Source: Aridibacter famidurans | Lineage (GTDB): Bacteria; Acidobacteriota; Blastocatellia; Pyrinomonadales; Pyrinomonadaceae | Direction: 5' to 3' | Length of the DNA stretch: 64,000 nt | NCBI GenBank assembly: GCA_024103495.1 | Contig: JAGFIQ010000002.1 | Span: 1 to 64,000 of the forward strand | Position numbers and translations under genes: made by a program | Notes under the pieces: generated by a model | The model's database searches: none | The model's input: only the letters and a program-made list of their open reading frames with translations | What the model was told of the DNA's origin: nothing | In this document: positions 23,590-64,000 of the stretch, in pieces | Position numbering within the stretch: position 1 is the first letter of the stretch | Layout: every line of letters starts with the position of its first letter

Positions 23590-23826
23590 AACAATTTTTG
23601 GCGCTCCGCGGCTCGAAACGGAAGGTGCGCCTTGCCTCCTATCCTGAGTTGAAGGGAAAGACGGGCGACCCCGCCCGAGACGGAAGCCTCAAGCCGGGAC
23701 CGATGCCCGGGCACAAGAAACCTGAACCGGAATGAGGTTTCGTTCCGGTCCGGGCACTGAGCCCGAGGCCCAAATTGTTATGCAGGTGATGGGTTGAGCC
23801 GGATGCAGTATAGCAGAAGTTTGCAG

Positions 23827-23898
23827 AGTCTATCGAGTCTGTCGGGTCTATCGAGTCTGCAAAGTCTATCGAGTCCTTCGAGTCTGTCGAGTGAATCG
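23827..23898 (+). repeat. Tandem 9-mer, eight copies of AGTCTATCG-like units
   Basis: Eight adjacent units: AGTCTATCG, AGTCTGTCG, GGTCTATCG, AGTCTGCAA, AGTCTATCG, AGTCCTTCG, AGTCTGTCG, AGTGAATCG. Nine is a multiple of three, so it can be read through as a peptide, but no start, ribosome site or family supports a gene. Confidence 0.85.
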
Positions 23899-28606: not shown

Positions 28607-29015
28607 GTTCCAGGTTCCAGGTTCCAGGTTCAAAGAGGCAGAAACGCGACAGTCAGGGAGCGTGCAACGAACGAAGGCGGAACCCCGGGCGTGAGCGAGG
28701 GGGCGAAAATGAGTTCCAAGTTCCAGGTTCCAAGGGGCGGAACCCCGAGCGTCAGGGAGCGGAGCGACCGGAGGCGGAACCCCGAGCGTGAGCGAGGGGG
28801 CGAGCGCGAGTTTCATATTCCATGTTCCAGGTTCAAAGAGGCAGAAACGCGACCGTCAGGGAGCGTGCAACGAACGAAGGCGGAACCCCGAGCGTCAGCG
28901 AGGGGGCAGGGAGCGGAGCGACCGGAGGCGGAACCCCGAGCGTCAGCGAGGGGGCGAGCGCGAGTTTCACATTCCAAGTTCCAGGTTCAAAGAGGCGGAA
29001 CCCCGGGCGTCAGCC
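28607..29015 (+). repeat. Heptamer-plus-core composite repeat, several copies
   Basis: Heptamers GTTCCAG x3 and GTTCAAA open at 28607 and lead into a core: AGGCAGAAACGCGAC, GTCAGGGAGCGTGCAACG, AACGAAGGCGGAACCCC, GAGCGTGAGCGAGGGGGCGA. Parts of this unit repeat near 28710, 28812 and 28970, with shorter copies of the GGCGGAACCCCGAGCG segment between. A full inverted copy lies at 35443-35580. Several reading frames on both strands are open through it, giving spurious peptides. There is no gene between purL and the TlpA-like gene. Confidence 0.85.
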
Positions 29016-35442: not shown

Positions 35443-35580
35443 CTTTGAACCTGGAACTCGTTCTCGCCCCCTCGCTGACGCTCGAGGTTCTGCCGTCGTT
35501 CGCCGCACGCTCCCTGACGGTCGCGTTTCCGCCTCTTTGAATCTGGAACCTGGAACTTGGAACCTGGAACCTGGAACTAT
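35443..35580 (-). repeat. Heptamer-plus-core element, single inverted copy
   Basis: On the minus strand: GTTCCAG/GTTCAAA heptamers next to the kinase stop codon (35577-35579), then the core AGAGGCGGAAACGCGAC, GTCAGGGAGCGTGCGGCG, AACCTCGAGCG, GAGGGGGCGAGAACGA, then again GTTCCAGGTTCAAAGAA. This copy shows the core flanked by heptamers on both sides and defines the unit seen in several copies at 28607-29015. Confidence 0.8.
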
Positions 35581-42081: not shown

Positions 42082-42112
42082 ACAGTGTTCATCGATCAAT
42101 GCGCGGCTCTAG

Positions 42113-42301
42113 ACGGATCGCGCCGGACCGCGGGCGTCCCCGCCCGCAAATCTGCAGGCCATAGCGCTGTTCTTAACGGATCGCGCCGAACCGCGGGCTT
42201 CCCCGCCCGCAAATCTGCAGCCCATAGGGCTGCTCTAAACGGATCGGGCTGGACCGCGGGCGTCCCCGCCCGCATATCGGCAGCGCAAAGCGCTGCTCTA
42301 A
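42113..42301 (+). repeat. 63-bp tandem repeat, three exact-length copies
   Basis: Copies start ACGGATCG at 42113, 42176 and 42239, and the next unit breaks off as ACGGGG at 42302. Each unit contains GACCGCGGGCGTCCCCGCCCGC and ends GCTCTAA or similar. The last copy carries GCAGCGCAAAGCGCTGC and GCTCTAAACGGG, shared (inverted) with the 90-bp repeat at 10703. Sixty-three is a multiple of three and of seven, so the array stays open as a spurious peptide. It is followed by GGGGACAAGCCTCGCCCC, also found inside hemW. Confidence 0.85.
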
Positions 42302-42334
42302 ACGGGGACAAGCCTCGCCCCTACATTCGGCCTC

Positions 42335-49078: not shown

Positions 49079-49161
49079 ACAAAGACCAAAGACCAAAGAC
49101 CAAAGACCCAGGACCCAGGACCCAGGACCAAGGAGCATAGACCAGGGACCAGGGATCAGAG
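49079..49161 (+). repeat. Heptamer array, eleven or twelve units
   Basis: Units in order from 49085: ACCAAAG x3, ACCCAGG x3, ACCAAGG, AGCATAG, ACCAGGG x2, ATCAGAG. The step is seven throughout and the sequence drifts by single-base changes, as if grown by slippage and mutation. It ends 40 bases before the promoter of the phosphomannomutase gene. Confidence 0.85.
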
Positions 49162-52043: not shown

Positions 52044-52086
52044 GAGTAGTTTCTCTCGCGTGAGCTTGTTGTTGAAAGGGGATCTT

Positions 52087-53006
52087 AACCACGGAGTACA
52101 CGGAGGTCTTCACGGAGGACTCAAGGTAAGAGTACTTTGCGAAACTTTGCGCCTTGGCGTCTTTGCGGGAGGATTCTTCCCCGGCGTGTGCTGTTCATTA
52201 GGGAAGCTATAACCACAGAGCACACAGGGGTTTTCACGGAGGTCACGGAGAATGTTCTTTGCGGAAGTTTGCGCCTTGGCGTCTTTGCGGGAGCATTCTT
52301 CCCCGGCGTGTGCAGTTCCTTAGGGAAGTTATAACCACAGAGCACACAGGGGTTTTCACGGAGGACACATAATATGAGCACTTTGCGAAACTCAGCGCCT
52401 TGGCGCCTTAGCGAGAAGTTCGCGGTTTTAAAAGAGCAAGCTAACCACAGAGCGCACGGAGGTACACACGGAGAACACAAGGAAACTCAGTGCCCTCTGT
52501 GAAAAGCTCCGTGTACTTTGTGGTTAGCTCTTTTTATCTGCAGCGAAGGCGCGGAACCCCGCGCGCCGGCGTCTCTTCGTCGATCTCCGTAATTCGAACG
52601 GGGAATTCAACCACGAAGGTCACGGAGATCTTCACGAAGGAGCACAGGGAGAAGAAAGGCCTAATGCCGTGACTACCAATCGATCGATCGAAGTTTCCTT
52701 TGCGTCCTTTGCGAATACCTCCGCGCCCTTTGCGTTAGAGTCTTCTGCTTCGGTTTTCCATCGCCAGCCAGGTTATAACCGCAAAGGACGCAAAGGTTTA
52801 CGCAAAGTGCGCCAAGAGACGCCAAGGCGCAAAGTTCCGCAAAGTGAACTCTCCGCGACCTCCGTGAGAGACTCTGTGTGCTCTGTGGTTCAATCTTCTT
52901 TAAGGAACTGCACACGCAGGGAAGAGTGCTCCCGCAAAGTTCCACAAGGTACATTCTCTGTTACCTCCGTGAAAACCTCCGTGCGCTCTGTGGTTAAGTT
53001 CTTCTC
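52087..53006. repeat. Large array of AACCACAGAG-type long repeats
   Basis: Units begin AACCACRGAG at 52087, 52211, 52333 and 52443 (spacings 124, 122 and 110) and share GTTTTCACGGAGG, CTTTGCGGAA, GCGCCTTGGCGTCTTTGCGG and TTCTTCCCCGGCGTGTGC. From about 52777 the same motifs appear with AACCGCAAAGGACGC. The region closes with inverted ends, CTCTGTGGTT at 52880 and 52988. Shorter relatives sit at 48817-49060. No gene was found in this 0.9 kb. Confidence 0.85.
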
Positions 53007-60985: not shown

Positions 60986-61441
60986 ATGCCAAATACTTAC
61001 TCCTCACAGTTCTTTCACATTGTTTTCAGCACAAAAAATCGGAGACGCCTGATAACCGAAGATATCGAGAATGAGATTTGGAGGTTTATAGGCGGAAGTG
61101 CGAAGCGGTTCGGCGCGACTCCCATCCGCGTAGGCGGCTGCGAAGACCACGTCCATCTCTTGCTGATGTCGCGACCGTCGGTCCTTGTAAGCAGATTGGT
61201 CCAGCAGATCAAGGGAGAATCGTCTCGCTGGATCAGCAAGAAGTTCTCAAACAAGAAAACGTTTGGGTGGCAGGACGGCTACGCCAGCTTTACCGTCAGC
61301 AGATCGGCGGTTGACTCGGTCGAGGCCTATATCAGGAACCAGCGGAAGCATCATTCGCGAATGGGTTACGAAGACGAATACAGGAAGCTGCTCGAGCTAC
61401 ACGACGTGGATATCGTGGATGAGAAATACCTGTTCGGCTGA
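60986..61441 (+). CDS. IS200/IS605-type Y1 transposase (REP-associated-like)
   Basis: A HUH-endonuclease transposase of 151 residues, complete in length for TnpA of IS200/IS605. The metal-binding HUH motif is H55-V-H57 in GGCEDHVHLLLMSRP. The nucleophile is probably Y115 in VEAYIRNQRKH, with Q119 four residues on as in IS200 TnpA; classical REP-associated transposases usually have YIxxNP here. FHIVFSTKNRRRLI and FGWQDGYASFTVS also fit. It nicks and joins single-stranded DNA at hairpins. No TnpB/accessory gene is present. Its stop codon is immediately followed by the composite palindrome array. Confidence 0.9.
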   Translation: MPNTYSSQFFHIVFSTKNRRRLITEDIENEIWRFIGGSAKRFGATPIRVGGCEDHVHLLLMSRPSVLVSRLVQQIKGESSRWISKKFSNKKTFGWQDGYASFTVSRSAVDSVEAYIRNQRKHHSRMGYEDEYRKLLELHDVDIVDEKYLFG

Positions 61442-62075
61442 TCGGGACGCCGCAACGCGGCTGGGGATTCAAAACGTTCGCGACGGGTTTCGTTGTGCCA
61501 GCATCCCGTGCGCTGAAGCGCACGGCTAAGTTACGGCGTCCCTACGGGACGGGATTCGACTCATCGCGTTTCGGATTATCTCGCTGCGATCGGATTCGCA
61601 GATCAAAATGGTCATCGCGTAGCGATTGTGTATCTTAGCCGTGGCCTTCAGGCCACGGTGCGAGCGACGCGTTTGTCCAGTCGCGTAGCGACGTTCCGTT
61701 CGGCGACGCCGCTACGCGGCTGGGAATTCGAATCGTCCCGGACGGGTATCGTGTCCGTCGTTCCGTGCGCTGAAGCGCACGGCTAAGTTACAGCGTCCCT
61801 ACGGGACGGGATTCGACTCATCGCGTTTCGGATTATCTCGCTGCGATCGGATTCGTAGATCAAAATGGTTATCGCGTGGCGATGTTGTACCTTAGCCGTG
61901 GCCTTCAGGCCACGGTAGGCCGACCCGCGTTCGTCTAGTCGCGTAGCGACGTTCCGTTCGGCGACGCCGCGACGCGGCTGGAAATTCACGTTTCTCACGG
62001 CGTATCGTTTCTTTGCATTCCGTGGCCTGAAGGCCACGGCTAAGTTACGGCGTCCCTACGGGACGGACTGCGAAC
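61442..62075. repeat. 258-bp composite palindrome, about 2.4 tandem copies
   Basis: The complete unit is 61681-61938; a partial copy precedes it (61445-61680) and another follows (61939-62070). Each unit strings together GTCGCGTAGCGAC, GCCGCTACGCGGC, CCGTGCGCTGAAGCGCACGG, CGTCCCTACGGGACG, CATCGCGTTTCGG, and CCGTGGCCTTCAGGCCACGG. In the last copy the third hairpin is replaced by CCGTGGCCTGAAGGCCACGG. All hairpin loops are TGAA/TTCA or TA-centred. No gene is present. Confidence 0.85.
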
Positions 62076-62145: not shown

Positions 62146-64000
62146 ATGAAACGCATATCCGTTCTGCTTGCTATCCTCTTTCTCACGACTGTTCTCTTCG
62201 CCATCGACGATCCGGCGCGGTGGGTCAATCCGTTCGTCGGGACCGGAGGCCACGGGCATACGTTCCCCGGCGCGACGATGCCGTTCGGGATGGTCCAGCT
62301 CTCGCCCGACACGAGGATCGACAACTGGGACGGAAGCTCCGGATACCATTACTCCGACGACATCATCTACGGCTTCTCGCACACGCACCTCAGCGGAACC
62401 GGCATCCCCGATTACTGCGACATCCTCTTCGCTCCTTACATCAGCGACGAGTATTTCTGGGAAGCGAGTCCGGAAGACACGAAGAAGGGATTCGCGTCGA
62501 AGTTCTCGCACGACAACGAGAAAGCGGAGCCGGGTTACTACTCGGTCAAGCTCGACGACGAGAACATCCTCGCCGAGATGACGGCGACCGAGCGCGTCGG
62601 ATTCCACCGTTACACGTTTCCGAATGGGACCAAGGAAGCGAAGATGGCGCTCGATCTCAAGTGGCGGGACGAGGTTCTCGAGTCGGAGATCTGGGTGGTT
62701 GGAGACAGTCGGGTCGAAGGATTTCGTCGATCAAGTTCGTGGGCAAAGGATCAGATCGTCTTTTTCTCGGCAGAATTCTCGGAATCCTTCTATTCCCACG
62801 CCGTCCGTGGCGAGGGGGGCAAGCTGGAAAACAGGAATGACGCGGCAGGTACGATGAGGTCTAGTTACAAGGGGAAGGATCTGAAGGCCAACTTCCAGTT
62901 CCCGAGGCGCAACGACAAACCTCTCCTCCTCAAGGTCGGCATCTCCGCCGTCAGTATCGAGGGAGCGCGGAAAAACCTCGAGGCCGAGGTCCCGCACTGG
63001 GATTTCGACAAGGTCAGAAAGGACGCGCGTGCGGCGTGGAACAAGGAGCTATCGAAGATCGAGGTCTCCGGCGGGACCGACGCCGAGATGACGAATTTCT
63101 ACACCGCGCTCTACCACACGATGATCGCCCCCAACGTCTACAACGACGTCGACGGAAACTACCGGGGGATGGACCGGAAGATCCACAACATCGCTGATCA
63201 GTTCAAAGTTCAAAGCTCAAGGTCCAATGCCAAGTTCAAAGTTCAAAGTTCAAGGTTCAAAGAAAGTGAGTCGGATGATAAGCGTACGTCTTTGAACTTT
63301 GAACCTGGATCCTTGAACAGTTCCAGGAACTTGGAACCTGGAACTTTGAACAGTTCTTTGAACCTTGAACCTGGAACTTTGAACTCAAGACAGTACACAG
63401 TGTTTTCGTTGTGGGACACCTTCCGCGCGACGCACCCTCTCTACACGATCATCGACGAGAAGCGCACCGTCGAGTTCATCAACACCTTCATACGGATGTA
63501 CGAGCAGGGAGGCAAGCTTCCGGTGTGGGAGCTCGCCGGGAACGAGACCGACACGATGATCGGGTATCACGCAGTCTCGGTGATCGCGGACGCGATGGCG
63601 AAGGGCATCGAGGGATTCGATTACGAGAAGGCGTACGAGGCGGCGAGGCATTCGTCGGAACTCGACATAGAGGGACTTACAGCGTTCCGCAGCCGTGGTT
63701 TCATCTCGATGGAAGACGAGCAGGAGTCGGTCTCAAGGACGCTCGAGTATGCGTACAACAGTTATTGCCTGTACGTGATCGCAAGGGAAGTAAATGAACG
63801 CAAGAATCTACTTGTCGACCAAGAACTGGACGATATTGAAAGCGCTCGTCCGAGGCTGAAAGGTCCGGTTTCAGAAGAAGCCGAGATTCACCTCCGCCGC
63901 GCCCAGTTTTACAAGAACCTCTTCGACAAGCAGACCGGCTTTATGCGGCCGAAGCAGAACGGCAACTGGATCTCGCCGTTCTCGCCAAACGAGGTCACCT
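62146..64000 (+). CDS. GH92 family alpha-mannosidase (3' end beyond window), with in-frame repeat insert
   Basis: The first 618 residues of a glycoside hydrolase family 92 enzyme, a calcium-dependent exo-alpha-mannosidase family. The signal peptide is 1-20. The N-terminal domain starts DDPARWVNPFVGTGGHGHTF, then MPFGMVQLSPDTR, and SHTHLSGTGIPDYCDILF; the catalytic (alpha/alpha)6 part begins near FYTALYHTMIAPNVYNDVDG and continues FSLWDTFRATHPLYTII and KLPVWELAGNETDTMIGYHA. Between HNIADQ and RQYTVFSLWD about 63 residues (352-415) are encoded by heptamer repeats; the frame is kept. AGGAAAT precedes the ATG. The TonB receptor at the other end of the window is a type used for glycans, but no link is shown. 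Confidence 0.92.
   Translation, partial: MKRISVLLAILFLTTVLFAIDDPARWVNPFVGTGGHGHTFPGATMPFGMVQLSPDTRIDNWDGSSGYHYSDDIIYGFSHTHLSGTGIPDYCDILFAPYISDEYFWEASPEDTKKGFASKFSHDNEKAEPGYYSVKLDDENILAEMTATERVGFHRYTFPNGTKEAKMALDLKWRDEVLESEIWVVGDSRVEGFRRSSSWAKDQIVFFSAEFSESFYSHAVRGEGGKLENRNDAAGTMRSSYKGKDLKANFQFPRRNDKPLLLKVGISAVSIEGARKNLEAEVPHWDFDKVRKDARAAWNKELSKIEVSGGTDAEMTNFYTALYHTMIAPNVYNDVDGNYRGMDRKIHNIADQFKVQSSRSNAKFKVQSSRFKESESDDKRTSLNFEPGSLNSSRNLEPGTLNSSLNLEPGTLNSRQYTVFSLWDTFRATHPLYTIIDEKRTVEFINTFIRMYEQGGKLPVWELAGNETDTMIGYHAVSVIADAMAKGIEGFDYEKAYEAARHSSELDIEGLTAFRSRGFISMEDEQESVSRTLEYAYNSYCLYVIAREVNERKNLLVDQELDDIESARPRLKGPVSEEAEIHLRRAQFYKNLFDKQTGFMRPKQNGNWISPFSPNEVT
63200..63390 (+). repeat. Heptamer inverted repeat inside the GH92 gene
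   Basis: The left half has GTTCAAA-type units (AAGTTCAAAGTTCAAAG, AGGTTCAAAG). The right half is their inverse (CTTTGAACTTTGAAC, AACTTGGAACCTGGAACTTTG). About 25 unique bases lie between (AGTGAGTCGGATGATAAGCG). The units are those of the intergenic GTTCCAG/GTTCAAA arrays at 28607 and 35443. Confidence 0.9.

Follow-up and report, generated by a model that had tools for sequence, protein, structure and literature searches.

One loop of a GH92 glycoside hydrolase is filled with in-frame, stop-free repeat DNA in most orthologues from the family Pyrinomonadaceae, and the repeat differs from species to species. In the window (the whole 64,000-nucleotide stretch of DNA analysed here), which comes from a soil bacterium of this family in the phylum Acidobacteriota, the filler is an inverted array of heptamers. 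The case is wider than the first-pass annotation of this DNA saw, because most family members hold some other in-frame repeat at the same place; therefore, one tolerant spot in the protein would seem to be refilled again and again. We consider it very probable that this loop repeatedly captures the dispersed repeats of its host, and that the copies that are in frame and free of stops survive, are translated as disordered sequence and are later swapped for others.

The GH92 gene of the window and its heptamer insert

The gene and the parts of its insert are as follows.

62146-64000, forward strand: GH92 (alpha-mannosidase family) gene; open reading frame with Pfam PF17678 and PF07971, and PDB GH92 matches by sequence and fold
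63202-63390, forward strand: in-frame insert of 63 codons, about F353-R415; from the loop alignment across orthologues and AlphaFold pLDDT below 50 at 355-412
63201-63262, forward strand: left arm, forward GTTCAAA-type heptamers encoding a FKVQSSR-like peptide; TRF period 7 and unit scan
63263-63289, no strand: spacer between the arms; from the sequence
63290-63385, forward strand: right arm, pairing with the left arm and made mostly of reverse-complement heptamers (TTTGAAC/CCTGGAAC) that encode a LNLEPGT-like peptide; TRF and fold

In the list of open reading frames, the GH92 frame is free of stops from 62146 to past 64000. It is still open at the end of the contig (64594) and, therefore, the 3' end of the gene and the C-terminus of the protein lie outside the available sequence. 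Pfam places the GH92 N-terminal domain (E 7.6e-80) and the catalytic domain (E 2.2e-85) on this one frame, and the best stretch of the latter, residues 415-616, follows the insert. Both domains and the GH92 fold are present by Pfam, PDB and AlphaFold; alpha-mannosidase activity is predicted by family. The insert adjoins an FSxWDT motif that 25 GH92 proteins share without variation. Both of its flanks are under purifying selection: dN/dS between the window genome (G000) and its nearest relative is 0.07 before the loop and 0.10 after it.

AlphaFold gives the window protein a confident core (pTM 0.84), and the closest structural matches of the predicted protein are GH92 mannosidases, the top PDB match being GH92 BT3130. 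Residues 355-412 have a pLDDT below 50; the insert is predicted to be a disordered, flexible loop and is presumably exposed at the surface.

As the first-pass annotation had described, a heptamer inverted repeat lies inside the GH92 coding sequence. The sequence and TRF place the block at 63200-63385, with GTTCAAA-type units followed by their reverse complements and with TRF rows at 63200-63262 (period 7) and 63294-63384 (periods 33 and 14). The further claims that no stop occurs across the insert, that the catalytic sequence stays in frame downstream and that about 63 residues are added also hold, as a single open reading frame carries both Pfam domains and the insert measures 63 codons. Because seven is not a multiple of three, a pure heptamer array gives the identical 21-base cycle in all three frames. 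The six frames of the 184-bp array in the window contain 5, 0, 5, 2, 2 and 3 stops, and the sole open frame is the gene's own. The insert has a predicted fold of -76 kcal/mol and is the only strong hairpin within any open reading frame of at least 200 residues in the 64-kb window.

Heptamers had also been reported to form arrays elsewhere, and this is borne out by further arrays in the window and by the inspected clusters in the genome, which are mostly outside genes. The heptamers have 123 + 151 matches in the window genome versus 29 + 18 for a reversed control pattern. Of the 28 clusters that were inspected there, the one in GH92 among them, no other interrupts a real gene internally, and so heptamer tolerance is not general in this genome. 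One further array codes for the N-terminus of an amidohydrolase (L008; contig C117 of the window genome, 1267-1338), and this heptamer-encoded extension precedes a signal-peptide-like stretch of the protein. Other candidates for genes with heptamers in frame in this genome, a 760-residue frame in L139 and a number of shorter frames, were rejected as spurious or as lying beside a gene. Additional tandem arrays in the window are at 23826-23892, 42101-42305, 49080-49155 and 52086-52413 (9-mer, 63-mer, CAAAGAC heptamer and 122-mer). The heptamer arrays and the upstream context of the GH92 gene are listed here.

28607-28636, forward strand: GTTCCAG heptamer array; TRF and genome matches
35539-35577, reverse strand: another heptamer array; TRF and unit scan
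60986-61441, forward strand: RAYT-like gene for an IS200-like Y1 transposase, upstream of GH92 and listed for context only; PF01797, E 1.3e-29
61442-62066, no strand: palindrome-rich tandem array with a 257-bp period between the Y1 transposase gene and GH92, likewise for context only; TRF

Unrelated repeats in the same loop of relatives

The loop was parsed between the conserved motifs 'FYTALYH...PN' and 'YTVFSLWDTFR' in 50 family orthologues; a locus broken at an assembly N (L037) and two loci that end inside the loop were left out. It is filled (20-83 residues) in 41 of the 50 and empty (11-12 residues) in nine. A wider GH92 scan, mostly of Bacteroidota, found a loop of 10-13 residues in 58 of 60 parsed loci, and both exceptions belong to the Pyrinomonadaceae. 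The first-pass proposal of an intergenic repeat inserted in frame, for which relatives lacking the segment were the expected sign, is therefore supported by these short loops and by the dispersal of the repeats through the genome. Nor is the segment a conserved loop, as no relative carries those 63 residues.

All 41 inserts have a length that is a multiple of three and contain no stop. Under random frame and orientation, log10 p for the 41 inserts is about -14 for openness and about -20 for length modulo three; the sequences are non-independent, and the number of state changes on the tree described below keeps these p-values small. Exact hairpins with a 14-bp stem in GH92 genes are almost exclusively at this loop.

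About ten repeat classes, both heptamers and palindromes, occur among the inserts and are named after the peptides that they encode. The fillers vary by species and include heptamers (G000, G003 and G004, and others with a different unit), VSSP, ADTPVR, PPYEGG, SPGFSR, PPATAGG and more; the LQKPAR, YLRRSSAS, GTQA, PPATAGG and 'other' classes were assigned by eye, from appearance. GTTC heptamers, ADTPVR, VSSP, SPGFSR and PPYEGG have dispersed copies in their own genomes. For example, the SPGFSR element has 35 matches in G069 and ADTPVR about 50 in G086, and the insert DNA matches over tens of bases. The SSKLKAD type is weakly dispersed, with only about six matches in its genome. In the window's genus, heptamer loops are present in the heptamer-rich G000, G003 and G004 (63-124 matches) and absent from G001 (0 matches) and G005 (4 matches); G002 is heptamer-rich (73 matches) and yet has a VSSP-type loop. 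VSSP was also considered as a general coding element in this genus and was rejected, its matches outside the GH92 loops being marginal or in short frames. The GH92 gene of L076 (G094) displays the FSLWDTFR segment three times, between PPATAGG-type repeats.

The fillers have turned over. A tree of 63 GH92 proteins with the loop removed, made by a quick method with no bootstrap, requires no fewer than 29 switches between the 12 loop states, and sister species differ in repeat class (L088 and L094, for example). A paralogous GH92 subfamily, at most 47% identical to the query, has the loop filled at the same place in 8 of 20 parsed members, the empty site being 33 nt, and was filled independently. 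Because a single structural position is occupied in both of these diverged subfamilies, the choice of site would seem to depend on what the protein tolerates rather more than on a target sequence in the DNA.

A palindrome of the sister genus inside many genes

ADTPVR fills the GH92 loop in the sister genus g9 and was traced in G086. Twenty copies, picked by DNA similarity, were checked in this genome; 17 are in frame inside long genes and three are intergenic, and no gene-breaking copy was seen among the 20. ADTPVR, SPGFSR and VSSP are dispersed palindromic repeats in many copies, as REPs and REPINs are; the heptamer array of the window is tandem and is not covered by this description. REPs and REPINs are also defined as mainly extragenic, and the checked ADTPVR copies of G086 are mainly intragenic.

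The ADTPVR host proteins (loci L295-L314, in G086 and G081) include RtcB, asparagine synthase (AsnB), methionine synthase (MetH), TrmFO, LeuRS and TatD; ValRS carries the element in G081 and, by sequence, in G103. The LeuRS insert is just before KMSKS, with the two segments alignable to PDB 6q89 on either side of it, and RtcB had no match at threshold among PDB sequences. Measured from GGAG to CTCC, 14 of the 15 anchored in-gene copies in G086 are 97, 112, 127 or 130 bp long, all equal modulo three, and the exception is L299 at 113 bp; mis-anchored copies, one in L297 and one in L308, are excluded from these counts. The two measurable intergenic copies, at 143 and 123 bp, are outside that class modulo three. 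The element ends that were seen are GGAGnGCGGACAC...GTGTCCGCnCTCC.

A Y1 transposase, or recognisable sequence of one, is located in frame inside acetate-CoA ligase in L302 (G086), L313 (G081) and L264 (G078). It is flanked by ADTPVR copies, halves or parts, and the G086 case alone is Pfam-confirmed (Y1_Tnp). In G014 and G102, a PPYEGG element occupies this same loop of the ligase. In G086, a TrmD-like gene (L312, contig C23) seems to continue at its end into ADTPVR, which would supply a C-terminal tail.

Origin of the inserts and their relation to known repeats

On the account that we prefer, the loop of GH92 that precedes the invariant FSLWDT motif would be a permissive slot in which dispersed repeats of the host genome, either heptamer arrays or palindromic elements, land repeatedly. 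Selection would remove the out-of-frame and stop-bearing copies, the survivors would be translated, giving a loop that is flexible and disordered, and resident repeats would later be exchanged for other repeats; in the window genome, an inverted heptamer array would now occupy the slot. Given the preservation of the frame, the block is probably translated. Palindromes were presumably moved by a Y1/RAYT-type transposase and heptamers by slippage and inverted duplication, or by break repair, and one might guess that the fragility of the palindrome itself drives the turnover. A benefit of the inserts is possible and is not needed by this account.

That the inserts are selected, with a hairpin in the RNA or a peptide that is useful in translation, secretion or substrate access and a slot that is kept filled, strikes us as unlikely. 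The high proportion of filled orthologues, the refilling of the slot with unrelated repeats in sister species and the many very stable hairpins, the strongest at -135 kcal/mol, would all agree with such a role. However, some inserts are nearly hairpin-free (-2.6, -0.4 and -5.0 kcal/mol in L026, L085 and L015, respectively); sequence, length and peptide vary freely, and species with an empty loop persist. Strong hairpins at a fixed site also recall bypass elements, and one could imagine that the insert is removed or skipped at the RNA or protein level (intron-like, by translational bypass or by cleavage), which would leave an enzyme of normal length. Removal would not require an open frame, and yet all 41 inserts keep both the frame and the absence of stops; moreover, the in-gene ADTPVR copies of G086 share a length class that the intergenic ones do not. 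We therefore regard removal or skipping as very improbable.

A loop that is simply hypervariable and disordered, and whose sequence drifts towards low complexity unaided by dispersed repeats, would account for the composition of the inserts, which are hydrophilic on average (72% P, E, S, K, Q, R, G, A and N). It would not account for the matches of SPGFSR and ADTPVR insert DNA to dispersed repeats of the same genome, and drift is already disfavoured for the repeat classes that were checked for dispersed copies; as a general explanation we give it very little credence. As for the assembly, the window genome is in 188 contigs, and repeats are prone to misassembly, so that heptamer repeats in a MAG contig might have been collapsed or mis-joined. 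But the frame and the homology are intact on both sides, and an error is extremely unlikely because relatives assembled in 2-8 contigs (G078, G001 and G093) hold their own inserts at the same place.

Capture of host repeats by a tolerant loop thus remains our preferred reading. A broader picture, possible although somewhat short of probable in our judgment, is that of a 'repeat-fed' slot: one loop, in two GH92 subfamilies, that is continually rewritten by the dispersed repeats of the host and so is a standing hypervariable region, accompanied in the sister genus by a mainly protein-coding palindrome whose copy lengths stay in phase with the reading frame.

The STRR type of repeats in cyanobacteria consists of heptameric short tandem repeats. 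Intergenic TAACTGA heptamer repeats are described in the Beggiatoaceae (PMC4679880). The heptamers studied here resemble these in their seven-base tandem units and many intergenic arrays and differ in that one array is also coding.

The overall behaviour is best read as like that of Rickettsia palindromic elements and intragenic REPs. The Rickettsia and Wolbachia elements are palindromes of about 100-150 bp that occur between genes as well as, in frame, within conserved protein-coding genes (PMC2229807, PMC10969869). Insertion in frame into conserved genes is common to both systems (here GH92 and, for ADTPVR, LeuRS, ValRS, RtcB, AsnB, MetH and TrmFO). ADTPVR is palindromic, at 97-130 bp; the insert of the window is an inverted array of heptamers, 184 bp long. 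The likeness proposed here is one of behaviour; the phylum is another one, and in the present case a single loop of one protein accommodates many unrelated repeats across species. Intragenic GTAG/CGTC REPs have been found inside open reading frames of Opitutus terrae, Thioalkalivibrio, Xanthomonas and others (BMC Genomics 2013, PMC3733652), and recB in two Xanthomonas species holds different REPs at about one site (PMC3733652). This two-species precedent compares with 41 orthologues and eight paralogues here, where heptamer arrays also take part and most of the checked G086 copies are intragenic. REPINs, which occur with RAYT transposases, are inverted pairs that form a hairpin and were described in extragenic space (PMC3116915). 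Hairpin-forming inverted pairs and an IS200-like transposase flanked by element copies are seen here as well; in contrast, the transposase and its flanking elements are in frame inside acetate-CoA ligase, and mobilisation is putative.

In the literature searched, with subscription papers mostly outside its coverage, we found no earlier description of repeats that code for protein in Pyrinomonadaceae or any other Acidobacteria. As far as this literature shows, the size of the single-site hotspot and the replacement of one repeat by another, unrelated one look new; so do the participation of heptamer arrays and the occurrence in Acidobacteriota of a palindrome that is mainly intragenic.

In conclusion, protein-coding repeats extend to the Acidobacteriota and to heptamer arrays, and annotators should be warned that REP-like DNA can be genuine coding sequence. 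About 40 filled and nine empty versions of one enzyme are available, which makes it possible to ask of a single protein whether palindromic elements in frame are useful or just tolerated. These results suggest that the tolerance of loops in host proteins, and not only the sequence of the element, decides where such repeats survive.
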